NCBI GenBank assembly: GCA_955652025.1
Contig: CATPAO010000021.1
Location: forward strand, 1 to 14,613
DNA: 14,613 nucleotides
Source: Casimicrobiaceae bacterium
GTDB lineage: Bacteria > Pseudomonadota > Gammaproteobacteria > Burkholderiales > Casimicrobiaceae
Direction of reading: 5' to 3'
Positions 119 through 14,613 of the stretch are shown in pieces (within the stretch, counting starts at the first letter, position 1; every line of letters starts with the position of its first letter). The position numbers and the translations under genes were made by a program. A model generated the notes under the pieces. That model was not told where the DNA came from, searched no databases, and saw nothing but the letters and a program-made list of their open reading frames with translations.

Positions 119-162
119 GTCCTGTCCAGGACGCAGTTGCACCGTTTGTGTGCAAAAATTGC
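119..162. promoter_or_regulatory. stacked short dyads in the divergent tRNA-Val / ATP-grasp intergenic region
   Basis: The 194-bp gap between the tRNA and the first cluster gene contains three perfect short inverted repeats in 44 bp: GTCCTG-TC-CAGGAC (119-132), TTGCAC-N7-GTGCAA (137-155) and GCAA-AAA-TTGC (152-162). The last two share bases 152-155, so as RNA hairpins they would be mutually exclusive. They could be operator half-sites for the Anbu cluster or short hairpins. I see no convincing plus-strand -35/-10 pair here, and no other gene in 45-238. The function is unknown. Confidence 0.3.
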
Positions 163-238: not shown

Positions 239-1702
239 ATGGCTTGCCGCTTGCTTAATTCCGCCAACCGCGTCGCACAAATTTGCATGTTCCCCCCTCC
301 CTACGACGAAATGTTGGGTCCGGACGGCCAGGTCCGGCCCCATTACCGGGCATTCGCCGATTGGCTCGATCGAACGACACCGGATCGGATTGCGCAAAAA
401 CGGGGCGAGGCGGAGCGCGCGTTTCATCGTGTCGGAATCACGTTCGCGGTGTACGGCGAGGAATCCGGCACCGAGCGGTTGATCCCATTCGATCTCGTGC
501 CGCGCATCATTCCGGCGAACGAATGGACGACGCTCGAAGCCGGGCTGCGGCAGCGTGTGCATGCGCTGAATCTGTTCCTGCATGACATTTATCACGACCA
601 GGCGATCCTGAAGTCGGGCACCGTGCCAGCCGAACGCGTGCTTTCGAACGCGCAGTACCGGCGCGAAATGGCCGACATAGACGTGCCCAGCGGCATCTAC
701 GCGCACGTCGCGGGCGTCGACGTCGTGCGTGCCGGCGAGGGCGACTACTACGTGCTGGAGGACAACCTGCGCGTTCCCTCCGGCGTCTCCTACATGCTCG
801 AAAACCGCAAGATGATGATGCGGCTTTTCCCCGAGCTTTTCGCCACGCGCCTCATCCGGCCGATCCAGCACTATCCGGACCTGTTGCTCGAGAACCTGCG
901 CACCGTCGCGCCCGCCGGTGAAGAGCGACCCACGGTGGCCCTGCTGACGCCCGGCGCGTACAACGCCGCGTATTTCGAGCACGCGTTCCTGGCGCAGCAG
1001 ATGGGCGTGGAGCTGGTCGAGGGTATCGACCTGTTCGTTCAGAACGACACGGTCTTCATGCGGACGACGCGCGGTCCGCAGCGCGTGCACGTGATCTATC
1101 GCCGCGTCGACGACGACTATCTCGATCCGCAAGCGTTCCGACCGGATTCGATGCTGGGGGTGCCGGGGCTGTTCTCGGCCTATCGCGCCGGAAGGGTCAC
1201 GCTCGCCAACGCGATCGGCACCGGCGTCGCAGACGACAAGTCCATCTATCCCTACGTGCCGGACATGATTCGCTTCTACCTGACAGAGGCCCCGATCCTC
1301 AACAACGTGCCGACCTACATGCTGCATCGGCCCCAGGATCGCGAACACGCGCTCGCGCATTTGTCCGAGCTGGTCGTGAAGGAGGTGCACGGCGCGGGCG
1401 GTTACGGCATGCTGATCGGCCCGGCCGCCACCAAGGCCGAGATCGAGGCGTTCCGCCAACGGATCAACGCCGCCCCGGAGAAATACATCGCCCAACCGAC
1501 GCTGGCCTTGTCGACCTGCCCGACGTTCGTCGAATCCGGCGTGGCGCCGCGCCACATCGACCTCCGCCCCTACGTGTTGTCGGGGACGGACATCGATTTG
1601 GTCCCCGGCGGTTTGACCCGCGTCGCACTGCGGCCGGGATCGCTGGTCGTCAATTCGTCGCAGGGCGGCGGCACCAAGGACACCTGGGTCCTCGCGCAAT
1701 AG
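239..1702 (+). CDS. circularly permuted ATP-grasp family protein (Anbu cluster ligase)
   Basis: This 487-aa protein is a circularly permuted ATP-grasp enzyme (DUF404/DUF407, COG2308 type). Such enzymes use ATP to activate a carboxylate and join it to an amine; the substrate here is unknown. Recognisable conserved blocks are GEESGTERLIPFDLVPRIIP near residues 74-93, the acidic LEDN motif at 173-176 followed by LRVPSGVSYMLENR, and the glycine-rich KEVHGAGGYG at 381-390, a likely phosphate-binding loop. Length is normal for the family. The start is ambiguous. ATG 239 has a good Shine-Dalgarno (AAAGGA, 224-229, 9-nt gap), but family members usually begin around the YDEM block, which favours ATG 287 (codon 17) or 311. 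The stop lies 7 bp before the alpha-E gene, so the two are surely cotranscribed. The family assignment is firm; the reaction is inferred. Confidence 0.93.
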   Translation: MACRLLNSANRVAQICMFPPPYDEMLGPDGQVRPHYRAFADWLDRTTPDRIAQKRGEAERAFHRVGITFAVYGEESGTERLIPFDLVPRIIPANEWTTLEAGLRQRVHALNLFLHDIYHDQAILKSGTVPAERVLSNAQYRREMADIDVPSGIYAHVAGVDVVRAGEGDYYVLEDNLRVPSGVSYMLENRKMMMRLFPELFATRLIRPIQHYPDLLLENLRTVAPAGEERPTVALLTPGAYNAAYFEHAFLAQQMGVELVEGIDLFVQNDTVFMRTTRGPQRVHVIYRRVDDDYLDPQAFRPDSMLGVPGLFSAYRAGRVTLANAIGTGVADDKSIYPYVPDMIRFYLTEAPILNNVPTYMLHRPQDREHALAHLSELVVKEVHGAGGYGMLIGPAATKAEIEAFRQRINAAPEKYIAQPTLALSTCPTFVESGVAPRHIDLRPYVLSGTDIDLVPGGLTRVALRPGSLVVNSSQGGGTKDTWVLAQ

Positions 1703-1709
1703 ACGAACC

Positions 1710-2666
1710 ATGCTCTCCCGAACCGCAAACGAACTCTATTGGATGGCGCGTCATATCGAGCGCGCGGAAAACACCGCGCGGCTCCTCGACGTCACCTACC
1801 GAACGTCGCTCTTGCCATATGAAATGCACGAACCGGGCCTGTCGTGGGCCGAGCCGTGGGCGGTCCCCTTGGTCACCTCGGGGCTTGCCACTGCTTACTA
1901 CGAGCGGCAATCCGGCGTGAGCGCCGATACCGTGCTGAGATATATGATTATCGACAGCACGAACCCGTCGTCGATCTTCTGCTGTCTGCGCGCGGCCCGC
2001 GAATCGGCCCGCTCGGTTCGCGGCGCGATCACGTCCGAGATGTACGAGGACCTGAACTCGGCGTGGCTCGATATGCGGGCTTACGATTACGAGCGAATCG
2101 AGGCCGGCGGCTTCTCCGATTTCTGCGACTGGGTGAAAATGCGCTCGCACCTGTTTCGCGGCGTGACGTTCGGCACGATGCTGCGCGACGAGGCGTATCA
2201 CTTCATTCGGCTCGGCACGCACATCGAGCGCGCCGACAACACCGCCCGCATTCTGGACACCAAATATCACATCCTGTTGCCGTCGGTGACGGACGTCGGC
2301 GGCGCCGTCGATTACTATCAGTGGCAGTCGCTGCTGACGTCGGTGTCGGGCTTCGAGGCGTACCGCAAGATCTACAGCGACGTCATTTCGCCGCATCGCG
2401 TGGCCGAGCTTCTGGTCCTGCGCGCGGACATGCCGCGATCGCTGCACAGCTGCATGAATTTCATCTACGAGACGCTCGACATCCTGTGCGACGAGAACAG
2501 CCGCGAGCTGTCGCGCCAGGCCGGCGAGCTGCACGCGCGCCTGCATTTCGGGCGCCTGGACGAAATGATCGACTTCGGGCTCCACGAGTACCTGGTGGAC
2601 TTCCTCGAACGAATCGCCGCGCTGGGCGGCGAGATCAGCCGCGTGTTCCTCGTTCCGACCAACTGA
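1710..2666 (+). CDS. alpha-E domain protein (DUF403)
   Basis: This 318-aa, predominantly helical protein belongs to the alpha-E family (DUF403, COG2307), which almost always sits beside a circularly permuted ATP-grasp gene. The hallmark start MLSRTANELYWMARHIERAE is present. The block HIERAENTARLLD (15-27) recurs as HIERADNTARILD (171-183), 11 of 13 residues identical, showing that the protein is an internal duplication of one helical unit around a conserved His-Ile-Glu-Arg. No signal peptide or membrane segment is visible, so it should be cytoplasmic. The role is unknown; in this context it may hold or position the peptide substrate for the ligase or the Anbu peptidase. No strong Shine-Dalgarno precedes it, and translation may be coupled to the upstream gene 7 bp away. 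Confidence 0.94.
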   Translation: MLSRTANELYWMARHIERAENTARLLDVTYRTSLLPYEMHEPGLSWAEPWAVPLVTSGLATAYYERQSGVSADTVLRYMIIDSTNPSSIFCCLRAARESARSVRGAITSEMYEDLNSAWLDMRAYDYERIEAGGFSDFCDWVKMRSHLFRGVTFGTMLRDEAYHFIRLGTHIERADNTARILDTKYHILLPSVTDVGGAVDYYQWQSLLTSVSGFEAYRKIYSDVISPHRVAELLVLRADMPRSLHSCMNFIYETLDILCDENSRELSRQAGELHARLHFGRLDEMIDFGLHEYLVDFLERIAALGGEISRVFLVPTN

Positions 2667-2690
2667 TCTGCGCACCGAGGCTGACGGAGC

Positions 2691-2704
2691 CGTTCCGGTA
2701 AAAT
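2691..2704 (+). promoter_or_regulatory. putative -10 element of an internal promoter before the Anbu gene
   Basis: The 84-bp gap 2667-2750 is the only sizeable gap inside the cluster. It carries TAAAAT (2699-2704, 5 of 6 matches to the -10 consensus) within CGTTCCGGTAAAAT, a 14-mer repeated exactly at 8347-8360 just upstream of pyrG. No good -35 box lies 16-18 bp upstream; the nearest candidate, CTGACG (2681-2686), is only 12 bp away. Position and similarity to the better pyrG promoter support it; the missing -35 weakens it. Confidence 0.35.
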
Positions 2705-2750
2705 CGATCCTTTTCGCGCGGGCGCATCGCGGTCCTCGCTCACCACAGCC

Positions 2751-3482
2751 ATGACTTATTGCGTTGCAATGTCGCTCGACGCGGGAATGATCTTCGCGTC
2801 GGACTCCCGCACGAACGCCGGCGTCGACCAGATCGCCCGCTTCTCGAAGATGCGGGTGTTCCACCGCGACGGCGACCGCGTGATCGTGACGCTGTCGTCG
2901 GGCAACCTGTCGATCACGCAGAACGCCGTCAACGTGCTCGAGCTGCGGGCGCGTAGCGGCGACAAGGTCCCCAACATGTGGAATGCCGAGTCGATGTTCG
3001 ACGTCGCAGGGCTGTTGGGCGACGCGCTCCGCGAAGTCAAGACGCGCGACGGGCCCTATCTGTCGCAGAACAACATCGATTCGTCGGCGAATTTCATCGT
3101 CGGCGGGCAAATTCGCGGCGAGCCGCATCGGCTGTTCGAAGTCTATAGCGAAGGCAACTTCATCGAGGCCACCGCCGACACCTGCTACTTTCAGATCGGC
3201 GAATCGAAATACGGCAAGCCCGTGATCGACCGCGTGGTGAACCGCCGCACGTCGCTGGTCGATGCCACGAAATGCACGATCGTCTCGTTCGATTCGACGA
3301 TGCGCTCGAACATTTCGGTGGGATTGCCAATCGACCTGCTCGCCTACGAGGCGGACTCGCTCAAGATCAAATTGCAGCGCCGCGTCGACGAGACAGACCC
3401 CTATTTCCAGATGGTCCATTCGCAGTGGGGCGAGGGATTGCGGCGCGTGTTCGCGCAGCTGCCCGACCCCGATTGGACCTAG
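2751..3482 (+). CDS. proteasome-type peptidase Anbu (bacterial proteasome-related NTN hydrolase)
   Basis: This 243-aa protein is Anbu (COG3484), a bacterial relative of HslV and proteasome beta subunits. Loss of the initiator Met exposes Thr1 (TYCVAMSLDAG) as the N-terminal nucleophile. Asp17 in the block FASDSRTNAGVDQIARFSK and Lys32 at its end match the proteasomal Thr1-Asp17-Lys33 catalytic set; the SGNLSITQN block lies further downstream. There is no propeptide, and length is usual for Anbu. Anbu proteins are known to form open-ring or helical assemblies rather than closed chambers, and their natural substrate has not been established. The gene sits between alpha-E and the transglutaminase/DUF2126 gene, so it probably acts on the product of the ligases. 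It starts at ATG 2751 with no clear Shine-Dalgarno, and the next gene begins 15 bp after its stop. A classical HslV is unlikely because no hslU neighbour is present. Confidence 0.95.
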   Translation: MTYCVAMSLDAGMIFASDSRTNAGVDQIARFSKMRVFHRDGDRVIVTLSSGNLSITQNAVNVLELRARSGDKVPNMWNAESMFDVAGLLGDALREVKTRDGPYLSQNNIDSSANFIVGGQIRGEPHRLFEVYSEGNFIEATADTCYFQIGESKYGKPVIDRVVNRRTSLVDATKCTIVSFDSTMRSNISVGLPIDLLAYEADSLKIKLQRRVDETDPYFQMVHSQWGEGLRRVFAQLPDPDWT

Positions 3483-3497
3483 CGACCGCTCGTTTCG

Positions 3498-6400
3498 ATG
3501 GCGATCCGCGTCGCGCTGTTACATCGGTCGACTTACCGGTTCGATCGGCTGGTCAATCTCTCGCCGCACGAAATCCGCCTGCGGCCGGCCCCGCATTGCC
3601 GCACGCCGGTACTCGGCTATTCGCTCTCGGTCGAGCCTGAAAATCACTTCGTCAATTGGCAACAGGATCCGTATGGCAACTGGCTCGCACGGCTGGTGTT
3701 TCCGGAGCGGACCGGCAGGCTCGACATCACCGTCGACCTGACCGCGGATTTGACGGTCACCAATCCGTTCGACTTTTTTGTCGAGCCCTACGCCGAGGGT
3801 TATCCGTTCGCCTATTCAGGCGCGCTCGCGAAGGAATTGATCCCGTTCCTGGAAACGTCGCCGCTGACGCCGCGGCTCGCCCGGTGGATCGACGCGTTCC
3901 GTGCCTCGATTCGGCGGGACGAGTCGAGCGTCAACATGATGGTGCGGTTGAACCAGGAGCTGCAGCGCGAAATCCGTTACCTGGTGCGGATGGAGCCCGG
4001 TGTGCAGACGCCGGAAGAGACGCTCGAGCGCGCATGCGGTTCGTGCCGCGACAGCGGTTGGCTGCTGGTGCAGATCCTGCGCGCTCTCGGCATTGCCGCG
4101 CGTTTCGCGTCGGGCTATCTCATTCAATTGAAGGCCGACCTGAAGCCGCTCGACGGGCCCGCGGGGACCGACCGCGATTTCACCGACTTGCACGCCTGGG
4201 CGGAGGCCTACATCCCCGGCGCCGGTTGGATCGGATTCGACCCGACGTCGGGCCTCTTGGCCGGCGAAGGCCATCTGCCGCTCGCGTGCACCGCCGATCC
4301 CGGCAATGCGGCGCCGGTGATCGGCTACACCGATGTCTGCGAGACGCGGTTCGACGTCACGATGCAAGTCACGCGCATCCATGAGGATCCGCGCGTCACC
4401 AAGCCCTACAGCGAACCGCAATGGAATGCGATCCAGACGTTGGGCCAGCGCGTCGACGACGATCTCGTCCTCCACGACGTGCGATTGACGCAAGGCGGCG
4501 AGCCGACGTTCGTATCGATCGACGACATGGACGGCCCCGAATGGAATTACGTCGCGATGTCGCCGAAAAAACGCGATCTTGCCGAGGCCCTGCAACGGCG
4601 GCTCAAGAAGCGATTTGCGCCGGGGGGCCTGCTGCACCAGGGCCAGGGCAAGTGGTATCCGGGCGAGCCTCTGCCGCGCTGGTCGCTGGGGATCTATTGG
4701 CGCGTCGACGGCGAAGCGCTTTGGCGTGACGATATGTGGTTGGCCGACACGAGCGTCGCCGGAGCCTCGACGCTCGATACCGGTCGCGATTTCGCGCACC
4801 GACTCGCCGAGGCGCTCGGCCTGCCGCCCGATTACGTCATCACCGCGTACGAGGACGTGGCGCAACTTCTGCAACAGGAGGCGGCGCTGCCCGCCGATGT
4901 CGATCCGCTCAACGCCGACCTCTCGCAATCGGAGGAGCGCGCGCGGCTCGCCCGGCTGCTCCGTGGCGGGCTCGACAAGCCGGCGGGGTTCGTGTTGCCG
5001 CTCAAGGCGACAACCGCGAACGACGAGGCCGGGGATATCGTCTGGGAAACGAGCCGCTGGCCGTTGCGCCGCGAGCGGCTTTATCTGACGGTCGGCGATT
5101 CGCCGCTCGGATTGCGCCTGCCGCTTGGCGCGTTGCCGGATACCGTGCCTGACGATGAGCACGAAGGACCGATCGATCCGTTCGCGCCGCACGCGCCGCT
5201 CAAAAGGCGCGACGCGATGCAATCCAAGGGGCGCGCGCGAGGCGACGCTCTACCCGCGGTGATCAGGACCGCGCTGACCGTCGAGGTCCGTGGCGGTCAC
5301 GTACGGGTGTTCATGCCGCCGCTCACGCGGATCGCGTCGTACGCGGAGCTCGCCGCGCAAGTCGAGAACGTCGCGCGCGCACTCGACGTTGCCGTGGCGA
5401 TCGAGGGCTACCCACCGCCGCGCGATGCGCGCGTGAACGCGCTCCTGGTCACGCCCGATCCCGGCGTCATCGAGGTCAACATCCATCCGGCGGCGTCATG
5501 GCACGATCTGATCGAGACGACGACCGTGCTGTACGAGGAAGCGCGGCAGACGCGGCTCGGCACCGAAAAATTCATGCTCGATGGGCGCCACATGGGGACC
5601 GGCGGCGGCAATCACGTCACGCTCGGCGGCGCGGCGCCGCCCGACAGTCCGCTGCTGCGCCGGCCGGACCTGCTGCGGAGCCTGATCACCTATTGGCAAA
5701 ACCATCCGGCGCTGTCGTACTTGTTCGCCGGGATGTTCGTCGGTCCGACGTCGCAGGCACCGCGCGTCGACGAGGCGCGCGACGACCGCATCTACGAGTT
5801 GGAGATTGCATTCCAGCAACTCGTGCGAAAGCAGAAAGACGGCACGAGTGCGGCGTCGCCGTGGCTCACCGACCGCTTGCTGCGCAATCTGCTGACCGAT
5901 CTGACCGGCAACACGCATCGGGCGGAATTCTCGGTCGACAAGCTCTATTCGCCCGACAGTCCCACCGGCCGGTTGGGACTGTTGGAATTCCGCGCTTTCG
6001 AGATGCCCCCTCACGCGCGAATGAGCGCCGTCCAGATGCTGTTGCTGCGCGCGTTGGTCGCACGCTTCTGGCGTGAGCCCTACGAAGGGGCGCTGATCCG
6101 GTGGGGAACCGCGCTGCACGACCGCTGGCTGTTGCCGCATTTCGTCGCCACCGACATGCGCGACGTCGTCACCGACCTCAATCGCTTCGGCTACGAATTC
6201 TCGCCGCATTGGTTCGAGCCGTTCGTCGAATTCCGTTTTCCGCGCTTCGGCACCACGAGCTACGCGGGCGTGACGATCGAGTTGCGGCAAGCGATCGAGC
6301 CGTGGCACGTGCTGGGCGAGGAGACGAGCACCACCGGCACGTCGCGATTCGTCGACTCGTCGGTCGAGCGGTTGCAGGCGAAGGTGACCGGCATGATCGG

Positions 6401-6779
6401 CGGGCGGCACGTGGTCACCTGCAATGGACGCGCGCTGCCGCTCACGCCGACCGGCGTTCCCGGCGAGTTCGTCGCCGGCGTGCGGTTTCGCGCCTGGAAT
6501 CCGCCCTCGGCGTTGCATCCGACGATCGGCGTCCAGGCACCGCTTACGTTCGACCTCGTCGACACGTGGTCGCAGCGGGCGCTCGGTGGTTGCACCTACC
6601 ATGTCGTCCATCCCGGCGGGCGCAATTACGAGACCTTCCCGGTCAACGCGAACGAGGCCGAAGCGCGACGCACGACGCGCTTCTGGGCGCACGGTCATTC
6701 GCCGGGACCGGTCAGCGTGCATCCGGAACCCACGAACCCGGCGATGCCGTCGACGCTCGATTTGCGCTGGCAGCCGTAA
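3498..6779 (+). CDS. transglutaminase-like protease fused to DUF2126 (glutamine-synthetase-like ligase)
   Basis: This 1093-aa two-part enzyme combines functions that could be opposed. Residues about 4-90 match the bacterial transglutaminase N-terminal domain. The core at about 150-250 holds the full papain-like triad Cys183 ([12 protein letters not shown]), His232 ([10 protein letters not shown]) and Asp248 (FDPTSG); bacterial members of this fold usually act as peptidases or amidases. From about residue 300 to the end is DUF2126 (COG4196), proposed to be a circularly permuted glutamine-synthetase-like amide ligase. Its conserved blocks include [27 protein letters not shown] (700-706) and LEFRAFE with Glu830, Arg832 and Glu835, plausible nucleotide- or metal-binding residues. 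No signal peptide is visible. Length agrees with fused members in other proteobacteria. It is the last gene of the cluster; gltX follows after a 130-bp gap. Domain identity is firm; the DUF2126 chemistry is a published prediction, not shown here. Confidence 0.94.
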
Positions 6780-13880: not shown

Positions 13881-14613
13881 TTAATTCAGCACCGCCGAGA
13901 ACTGCGCACTTTCGATGCAGCCATTGCCCACGGCGGAAACCCAGCGCCCCTCGATGCCCAGCGATGTGGCCTTGACTTCGGACAGATCGGCCGTCGCCGA
14001 AAACACCGTCGATCCGCTCTGCGTACACGCGTAACTGGCAGCGCTGATCGTGTATTGGCCACCATGCAGGGCGAGTGTTCCCGTCATCTGGCACGCATAA
14101 TTCGGATAGGTGAACGACAGCGTCACTGCGCCCGCATTGGTCTGCGTGACCTGCAAACCGTAGGTGCCCGTGTACGAGCCGTTGCTCGACGAATTGTTGC
14201 AGCTGGTCTGCGACGCCGACATGCCTCCTGTGTAGAGGCCCCCGATCGTGATCGCGGTCAGCGTCTGCCGCTCGACGGCTTTGACGACCGTGCCGACGCT
14301 GCTGACCACGTACGTCATCGTCGCCTGGTAGGTGTTCGACGTGCTCGGACGAAACGACGCCGAGCCCACCTGCTGCGCCGTGGCGTCGCCGGTGCCCCAC
14401 GGCAGCGCGTAATAGGTGCCCGTGGTCGCATAGAGCGAGCCGCTATAGGCGCCGCTGCTATCGAGCGACAAATCGGCGGTGTACCAAGTCGGCTTGTGAT
14501 CCGCGCCGTAGATAAAGAACGTGACGAACATGAAGTTTTCCGACTGGATGACATTCATTCCCCAGCCGGATTCGCTCGGCGTCCACCAAATGTCGGTGTA
14601 GTCCGTGGCGAGC
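13881..14613 (-). CDS. partial, probably exported Ser/Thr-rich protein with WW-ESGWG motif (N-terminus outside window)
   Basis: The minus-strand frame is open from the window edge to the stop TAA at 13881-13883, giving 243 codons of a longer protein. An ATG at 14556-14558 is internal: codons before it, up to the edge, encode YTDIWWTPSESGWGMNV in one continuous motif. The WWxPxESGWG...F(V/A)TxFxYGxDxxPTWY pattern is one I recognise from many uncharacterised secreted proteins of beta- and gammaproteobacteria. The rest is beta-rich, with abundant Ser, Thr, Gly and Tyr and four cysteines (in TSCNN, YACQM, YACTQ and NGCIE), two possible disulfides, consistent with export. Any signal peptide would lie outside the window. 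Function is unknown. It is convergent with the methyltransferase gene. Confidence 0.8.
   Translation of the reverse strand, partial: LATDYTDIWWTPSESGWGMNVIQSENFMFVTFFIYGADHKPTWYTADLSLDSSGAYSGSLYATTGTYYALPWGTGDATAQQVGSASFRPSTSNTYQATMTYVVSSVGTVVKAVERQTLTAITIGGLYTGGMSASQTSCNNSSSNGSYTGTYGLQVTQTNAGAVTLSFTYPNYACQMTGTLALHGGQYTISAASYACTQSGSTVFSATADLSEVKATSLGIEGRWVSAVGNGCIESAQFSAVLN

Follow-up and report, generated by a model that had tools for sequence, protein, structure and literature searches.

Anbu forms a 12-subunit proteasome-like particle with an open ring (PMC5666114), and the canonical operon encoding it has a separate gene for a transglutaminase-like protein (PMC6376114). In this arrangement, of which PP_2685-2688 of Pseudomonas putida is an example, the genes are those of an ATP-grasp, alpha-E, a small transglutaminase, and Anbu. 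As of 2021 the operon was still without a known task (PMC8665760), and we found no later report of one. Here we analyze a variant of this operon in one entire contig of 14,613 bases (CATPAO010000021.1, hereafter the window), which belongs to a metagenome-assembled genome (MAG) of a Casimicrobiaceae bacterium (2.78 Mb, 67% complete). Its four genes, all on the + strand, encode a circularly permuted ATP-grasp, alpha-E, Anbu, and a fusion of a transglutaminase-like domain with DUF2126, and are separated by 7, 84, and 15 bases. Relative to the canonical operon, one transglutaminase gene appears to have been exchanged for another, and the DNA upstream carries a three-part control region whose conservation points to regulation by nitrogen.

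Among other described systems, I35_5080-83 of Burkholderia cenocepacia resembles the window in having DUF404/407 (the ATP-grasp), DUF403 (alpha-E), and a large transglutaminase protein; it differs by an additional, separate transglutaminase-domain protein, and the accessible text makes no mention of Anbu (PMC5491218). We infer that the large transglutaminase protein is a transglutaminase-DUF2126 fusion. In glutathionylspermidine synthetase/amidase, an amide ligase is joined to a papain-like hydrolase. The window also has a hydrolase-ligase fusion, but its fused ligase is glutamine synthetase (GS)-like, and its ATP-grasp is a separate gene. The Pup-proteasome system of actinobacteria combines a GS-fold ligase with a proteasome-like hydrolase and serves survival of starvation. 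The likeness to the window is in logic only: no gene for a small protein modifier was found in the cluster, whose gaps are those given above, and no AAA unfoldase among the genes of the window, both searches covering the window and not the remainder of the genome; moreover, the Anbu ring is open (PMC5666114). The kind of system is known. Its gene order, the swap, and the three-part control region were not found described in the literature within reach, which did not include most subscription papers or Iyer et al. 2009.

Apparent Exchange of the Transglutaminase Gene

The window and the canonical operon have the ATP-grasp, alpha-E, and Anbu genes in common, in the same order and on one strand; the ATP-grasps belong to the same radiation in the tree, and both operons have sigma54/NtrC-type DNA upstream. 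They differ in that the window lacks the small transglutaminase between alpha-E and Anbu, where there is only the 84-base gap, and has the fusion after Anbu. A profile of the small transglutaminase has a sole match in the window, which is the fusion.

Searching with the window Anbu gave 76 named loci, 60 outside and 16 (L082-L097) inside what we call the clade; the nearest relatives in this collection are MAGs, and most of them carry the label Betaproteobacteria or Burkholderiales. An original prediction, made without database searches, had equated the four genes with the known set. This does not stand, as it is the operon with a small transglutaminase that is found at 50 of the 60 non-clade loci, the gene immediately preceding Anbu in 49 and lying apart from it in L150. 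At the ten others (L103, L108, L124, L125, L139, L142, L143, L145, L147, and L155) no transglutaminase was detected in the fetched flanks, some of which end at contig ends. Transglutaminase-DUF2126 is present in none of the 60 within the fetched flanks, often shortened by contig ends. Within the clade, the alpha-E/Anbu junction is on the contig at 14 of the 16 loci, with a small transglutaminase in none of these 14. Immediately after Anbu comes the transglutaminase domain of the fusion in 15 of the 16, together with DUF2126 in 13; L084 and L087 end inside the fusion gene, and L086 ends before it. Further downstream, a glutamyl-tRNA-synthetase-type gene (gltX) follows the fusion at 11 of the 16 loci. 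Four end too early (L084, L086, L087, and L090), and in L097 there is no gltX in the 1.4 kb after the fusion. One clade record, the MAG titled Bordetella parapertussis (L091), has the clade operon and its synteny; the label looks doubtful.

In the ATP-grasp tree, rooted by midpoint, the clade forms one group (support 100/99), sister (99/90) to L101, which retains the small transglutaminase. Clade and L101 nest inside the canonical ATP-grasps, the fork to the Paraburkholderia side having a support of 92/83 only, and 0% of 200 bootstrap trees place the canonical rows together on one side of a branch. The clade's fusion genes cluster (100/99) with the fusion of a Pseudomonas aestuarii genome (L169), which has a canonical operon at another site. 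The simplest reading of these sequences is that the small transglutaminase was lost, and the fusion acquired, in an ancestor of the clade.

Elsewhere in the genomes, a full alpha-E gene occurs once in each of 12 of the 13 genomes searched (the window's own and 12 of the clade), with an additional fragment in G144; in the remaining one, G140, alpha-E was not found. Two of the same 13 have a second Bact_transglu_N protein outside the operon. A DUF2126 gene is present in 9 of 16 genomes chosen among those of the 60 non-clade loci; one of the 16 is that of L143, which has no operon partners beside its Anbu. A survey across the class, comprising 37 Anbu-centred regions (L042-L078) and three DUF2126-centred ones, gave a DUF2126 gene in 12 of the 37, some split or cut, and the gene order of the window in none. 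The association of Anbu with a transglutaminase-DUF2126 fusion is therefore not rare as such. Some genomes have two Anbu genes: in G073 (L042; 6494-7252 and 12949-14073) these flank a cluster of transglutaminase-DUF2126, ATP-grasp, and alpha-E, and in G123 and G086 they are on separate contigs.

A Conserved Control Region

The original prediction missed the regulatory DNA upstream of the operon, which in our judgement is the best clue to its function. Three elements can be identified there. The promoter-proximal one is a candidate sigma54 -24/-12 box, TGGCTTG-CCGC-TTGCT (TGGCTTGCCGCTTGCT; 240..255, + strand), which retains the GG and GC and has 2 mismatches. Upstream lies an NtrC-like enhancer palindrome, TGCACC-N5-TGTGCA (TGCACCGTTTGTGTGCA; 138..154), with 1 mismatch to what we take to be the NtrC consensus; 0.5 such matches are expected in the window. 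Just before it is a second palindrome, TGTCC-A-GGACG (TGTCCAGGACG; 123..133). No strand applies to the two palindromes.

Upstream regions were compared among 14 clade rows that extend 250 bases or more upstream, made up of the window and 13 of the 16 clade loci. Loci without an ATP-grasp match were omitted, as were L089, L105, L108, L112, L149, and L151, where this match starts too far inside; the shuffle test also omitted L111 (72 bases upstream). Between -250 and -20, a sigma54 match is found in 13 of the 14 rows, against a mean of 0.13 and a maximum of 2 in 200 shuffles, and in 13 of the 14 the box stands at -46/-47 from the start codon equivalent to position 287. In a gapless comparison, mean identity is 54% over the box, including its variable spacer, versus 32% over the stretch from -120 to -60. 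An NtrC match with at most 2 mismatches is found in the same interval in 10 of the 14 rows (shuffles: mean 0.165, largest 2), 8 of the 10 at -147 to -150 and the others at -138 and -123. In 13 of the 14 rows the first palindrome (TGTCC-W-GGACA, at most 2 mismatches) lies between -153 and -165. Taken singly, neither palindrome is rare within the window; among the 400 bases upstream, scattered matches to the first occur in 4 canonical and 7 class-sample rows, in the canonical ones not at the clade position.

The canonical operon gives a similar picture for the two regulatory sites, with sigma54 matches at 39 and NtrC matches at 24 of 46 loci (shuffles: mean about 1, largest 4 and 5, respectively), although many of these loci are from closely related Paraburkholderia and do not count as independent. 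The window's own genome encodes RpoN, and NtrC is above the family cut-off in 9 of the 12 genomes searched, the own genome counted among the 12.

Expression data published for relatives agree with such control. In P. putida, the first of two nitrogen-limited comparisons gives inductions of 11.1, 6.6, and 7.1 fold for PP2685, PP2686, and PP2687, respectively (PMC3325844). On nitrate versus ammonium, log2 rises of 4.4 and 4.0 are reported for PP_2685 (Anbu) and PP_2688 (ATP-grasp) (PMC8050072), and nitrogen limitation raises PP_2686-2688 by 11-15 fold in the wild type (PMC7801951). The I35_5080-83 genes of B. cenocepacia H111 (DUF404/407, DUF403, transglutaminase, and large transglutaminase) are sigma54- and NtrC-dependent (PMC5491218). 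COG3484, annotated as "proteasome-type protease," is among the predicted sigma54-regulated genes enriched in the alpha, beta, and gamma classes (PMC12316311), and domains for urea metabolism are associated with DUF403, DUF404, DUF407, and Bact_transglu_N in marine metagenomes (PMC3597751). The family was thus already known to be under nitrogen control, and what is new here is the anatomy of the control region and its conservation in one lineage. The operon of this lineage is very probably under nitrogen control. Regulation by nitrogen is fairly well supported, without being universal across the class.

The Four Proteins

The family names given in the original prediction all hold, through full-length Pfam matches for three genes and through solved Anbu sequences for the fourth; PF04174, PF04168, PF01841, and PF09899 were all matched. 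A search of NCBIfam profiles with the four proteins gave no matches.

The ATP-grasp (287..1702, + strand) matches PF14403 over positions 1-374 of 374 (E = 4e-167, 556 bits against a curated cut-off of 32) and PF04174 (E = 6e-156), and an alignment of 91 rows, window included, has 96 invariant columns. It also matches PDB 3n6x (E = 5e-220), deposited as a putative glutathionylspermidine synthetase. The start at 239 assumed previously is probably wrong, and 287 is the most likely start from the sequence comparison. We prefer it because the ATG at 239 overlaps the conserved sigma54 box, supplying the A directly before its TGGC. At the position of 239, 4 of the 14 clade rows have no NTG codon, and at that of 287, 13 of the 14 have ATG, GTG, or TTG and the remaining one CTG; the alignment with 3n6x begins at residue 20 of the longer version. 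Counting against 287, the frame between 239 and 287 stays open in every one of the 14 rows, ATG, GTG, or TTG stands at 239 in 7 of them, and an AAAGGA nine bases before 239 looks to us like a ribosome site. The start at 239 was rejected as the less likely one.

Alpha-E (1710..2666, + strand) matches PF04168 over its full length (1-294 of 294, E = 2e-96, above the curated cut-off). It is a tandem duplication of a unit of about 155 residues: the halves align with each other over 140 columns at 21% identity (HHalign E = 1e-19), and in the window protein each half has an ER motif. Its predicted model has a predicted local distance difference test score (pLDDT) of 89.6.

Anbu (2751..3482, + strand), a homolog of N-terminal threonine hydrolases, has no Pfam match at E <= 1e-3. 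It matches five distinct solved Anbu sequences (E from 1e-93 to 3e-69), best of all PDB 5loy, a designed Anbu-1 consensus protein (E = 1e-93). The residues T1, D17, and K32, the threonine directly following the start methionine, are present as originally claimed and are invariant in 111 of 111 aligned rows, only rows with more than 200 matched residues being included. The S1 pocket of the window protein is T20-F30-S48-L52-T55, and that of P. aeruginosa Anbu-1 is T20, F30, T48, L52, S55, the pocket of Anbu-2 being basic (PMC5666114). By this pocket the window protein is of the Anbu-1 type, the two pocket changes being between small polar residues.

The fusion (3498..6779, + strand) consists of a transglutaminase-like cysteine hydrolase (residues ~1-280), matching PF08379 and PF01841, and of DUF2126, a putative GS-fold ligase (~280-1090), matching PF09899 over 826 of 826 positions. 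The triad C183/H232/D248, also part of the original prediction, is invariant in 28 of 28 transglutaminase-DUF2126 rows, and the transglutaminase domain matches 3isr by profile (E = 9e-6). Among the GS-like rows retrieved with the DUF2126 model are gamma-glutamylmethylamide synthetase and a 1-naphthylamine GS. A GS fold for DUF2126 is predicted with moderate confidence. The earlier description of the cluster as two ligases, two peptidases, and a helical partner holds. In two assemblies the fusion gene is split in two frames (L085, 5943-9294, and L066, 5873-9465).

Comparison of the first three genes with four relatives gives 0.11-0.17 for nonsynonymous divergence (dN) and 0.66-1.14 for synonymous divergence (dS). 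With dN well below dS, this indicates that selection maintains these genes.

Co-occurrence across the Class

Among 140 genomes of the class, Anbu is present in 36, DUF2126 in 27, and alpha-E in 43, partial Anbu matches (G020 and G137) being counted. Alpha-E accompanies Anbu in 35 of the 36 genomes, the exception being the partial match of G020, and DUF2126 in 27 of 27; eight genomes have alpha-E without Anbu. This near-constancy suggests that the alpha-E side is the constant core of the system.

Urease is found in 21 of 35 Anbu genomes and in 12 of 104 others (Fisher P = 5e-8, odds ratio 11.5, 139 genomes), and catalase, used as a control, in 11 of 35 and 25 of 104 (P = 0.38). The test omitted the window's own genome (G000), weak urease rows (G010, G023, and G078), and weak catalase rows (G036, G056, and G126). 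The link between Anbu and urease is only a correlation, with genome size checked only via catalase and kinship partly controlled via the even draw of the sample.

Possible Function

We tentatively favor, at somewhat less than even confidence, a ligase/hydrolase module that acts in nitrogen starvation and marks a cytosolic protein or peptide. When nitrogen is short, phosphorylated NtrC would bind near 138-154, and sigma54 RNA polymerase would fire from 240-255, so that the four genes are made together; this co-expression is proposed on the basis of the conserved DNA and of the expression of the orthologous P. putida operon. To judge by fold and family, the ATP-grasp, probably with alpha-E, and the GS-like DUF2126 would join carboxylates to amines via acyl-phosphates, and Anbu (Thr1) and the transglutaminase-like domain (Cys-His-Asp) would cut amide or isopeptide bonds. 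The ligases may tag a cytosolic protein or peptide with a short mark, of amide-linked amino acids or of gamma-glutamyl type, and the tagged product may be processed by the hydrolases, the amino nitrogen being recycled. Both the substrate and the direction of the pathway are conjectural.

Several observations weigh against this account. Sigma54-like matches in the whole window number 2, with 2.2 expected; a single match is uninformative because it is no rarer than chance, and it was rejected as evidence alone, the weight resting on conserved position. The NtrC-like site has 3 mismatches in three clade rows and no counterpart in L094, and NtrC above the family cut-off was not found in the window's own MAG, which is 67% complete. 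In a second, distant lineage of the class sample, sigma54 matches occur in 11 and NtrC matches in 3 of 30 rows, which led us to reject a nitrogen promoter before all Anbu loci. In Table 2 of PMC7801951, PP_2685 (Anbu) is only 1.1 fold up in the wild type, and PP_2686 is induced 12.6 fold in the wild type and 14.2 fold in an rpoN mutant; this mutant still induces PP_2686-2688 14-20 fold, and urtA too (PMC7801951). This behavior argues either that dependence on sigma54 is not strict or that some RpoN remains. On the protein side, Anbu did not act on standard peptide substrates (PMC6376114, PMC5666114), and Piasecka and colleagues detected neither peptidase activity of Anbu nor specific interactions among the operon proteins (PMC6376114). 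The predicted model of the fused protein has a mean pLDDT of 69.8, and its best GS row in Foldseek has E = 0.08.

A further reading is a tagging and recycling system of Proteobacteria for nitrogen starvation that needs no protein modifier and would parallel, without Pup, the proteasome route of actinobacteria. ATP-grasp/alpha-E and DUF2126 would build a short isopeptide mark on proteins, and Anbu and the transglutaminase domain would process the marked proteins. We regard this reading, both as a system and in this division of labor, as unlikely.

The chief rival, which we consider possible, is that the two ligases yield a soluble metabolite of gamma-glutamyl or isopeptide type that Anbu and the transglutaminase domain hydrolyze again, the product being a nitrogen carrier or a handle for dismantling a poor nitrogen source. 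Its models are glutathionylspermidine synthetase/amidase and the gamma-glutamyl-amine pathways. The matches of DUF2126 to gamma-glutamylmethylamide synthetase and 1-naphthylamine GS, the annotation of 3n6x, the fusion of a ligase to a papain-like hydrolase domain, and the co-occurrence with urease would all fit. Yet no oxidoreductase, transporter, or transaminase is present among or between the four operon genes, and a 12-subunit proteasome-like particle is odd for a small metabolite (PMC5666114).

Anbu might instead be a bulk-turnover protease in nitrogen starvation, the ligases being neighbors with a separate task. Fuchs and colleagues favor proteolysis for Anbu, arguing for degradation from inhibitor binding and the shape of the ring (PMC5666114). 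However, Anbu hardly ever occurs without alpha-E, which speaks against a stand-alone protease, an AAA unfoldase is missing among the window genes, and no Anbu peptidase activity was found in PMC6376114. We regard this alternative as improbable. That the operon is a functionless relic or a horizontally drifting cassette in its host is highly improbable: its patchy distribution (Anbu in 36 of 140 genomes) and its position beside a tRNA gene might suggest it, but the catalytic residues are kept, dN is well under dS in three genes, the sigma54 box is better conserved than the preceding spacer, and the location between the tRNA gene and gltX is the same in most of the clade.

For the Anbu operon, the nitrogen-control DNA and the co-occurrence with urease tell the experimenter when to look, namely under nitrogen limitation, and the swap and the co-occurrence pattern point to a possible constant core, on the alpha-E side, with interchangeable parts. 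A vague proposal of peptide tagging thereby becomes a defined strain comparison.

Neighboring Genes

The cluster had been described as complete and intact. The four genes are indeed open, and completeness applies to these four genes only, as the left end of the contig cuts a tRNA gene (1-44, - strand; Rfam RF00005, 31.2 bits). From our reading of the anticodon loop this is tRNA-Val(CAC). A tRNA gene precedes the operon in all 14 aligned rows, at the same position in the sister loci. On the 3' side, the operon is followed by genes for a glutamyl-tRNA-synthetase-type protein, CTP synthase, a DAHP-synthase-family protein, a Dabb-domain protein, enolase, a DivIC-family protein, and a SpoU methylase; the names gltX, pyrG, kdsA, eno, and ftsB are our assignments within this series. 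An open frame of 243 residues (13881-14612, - strand) runs off the contig; it has no Pfam or NCBIfam match, and a partial match to it in L082 shows 67% identity.

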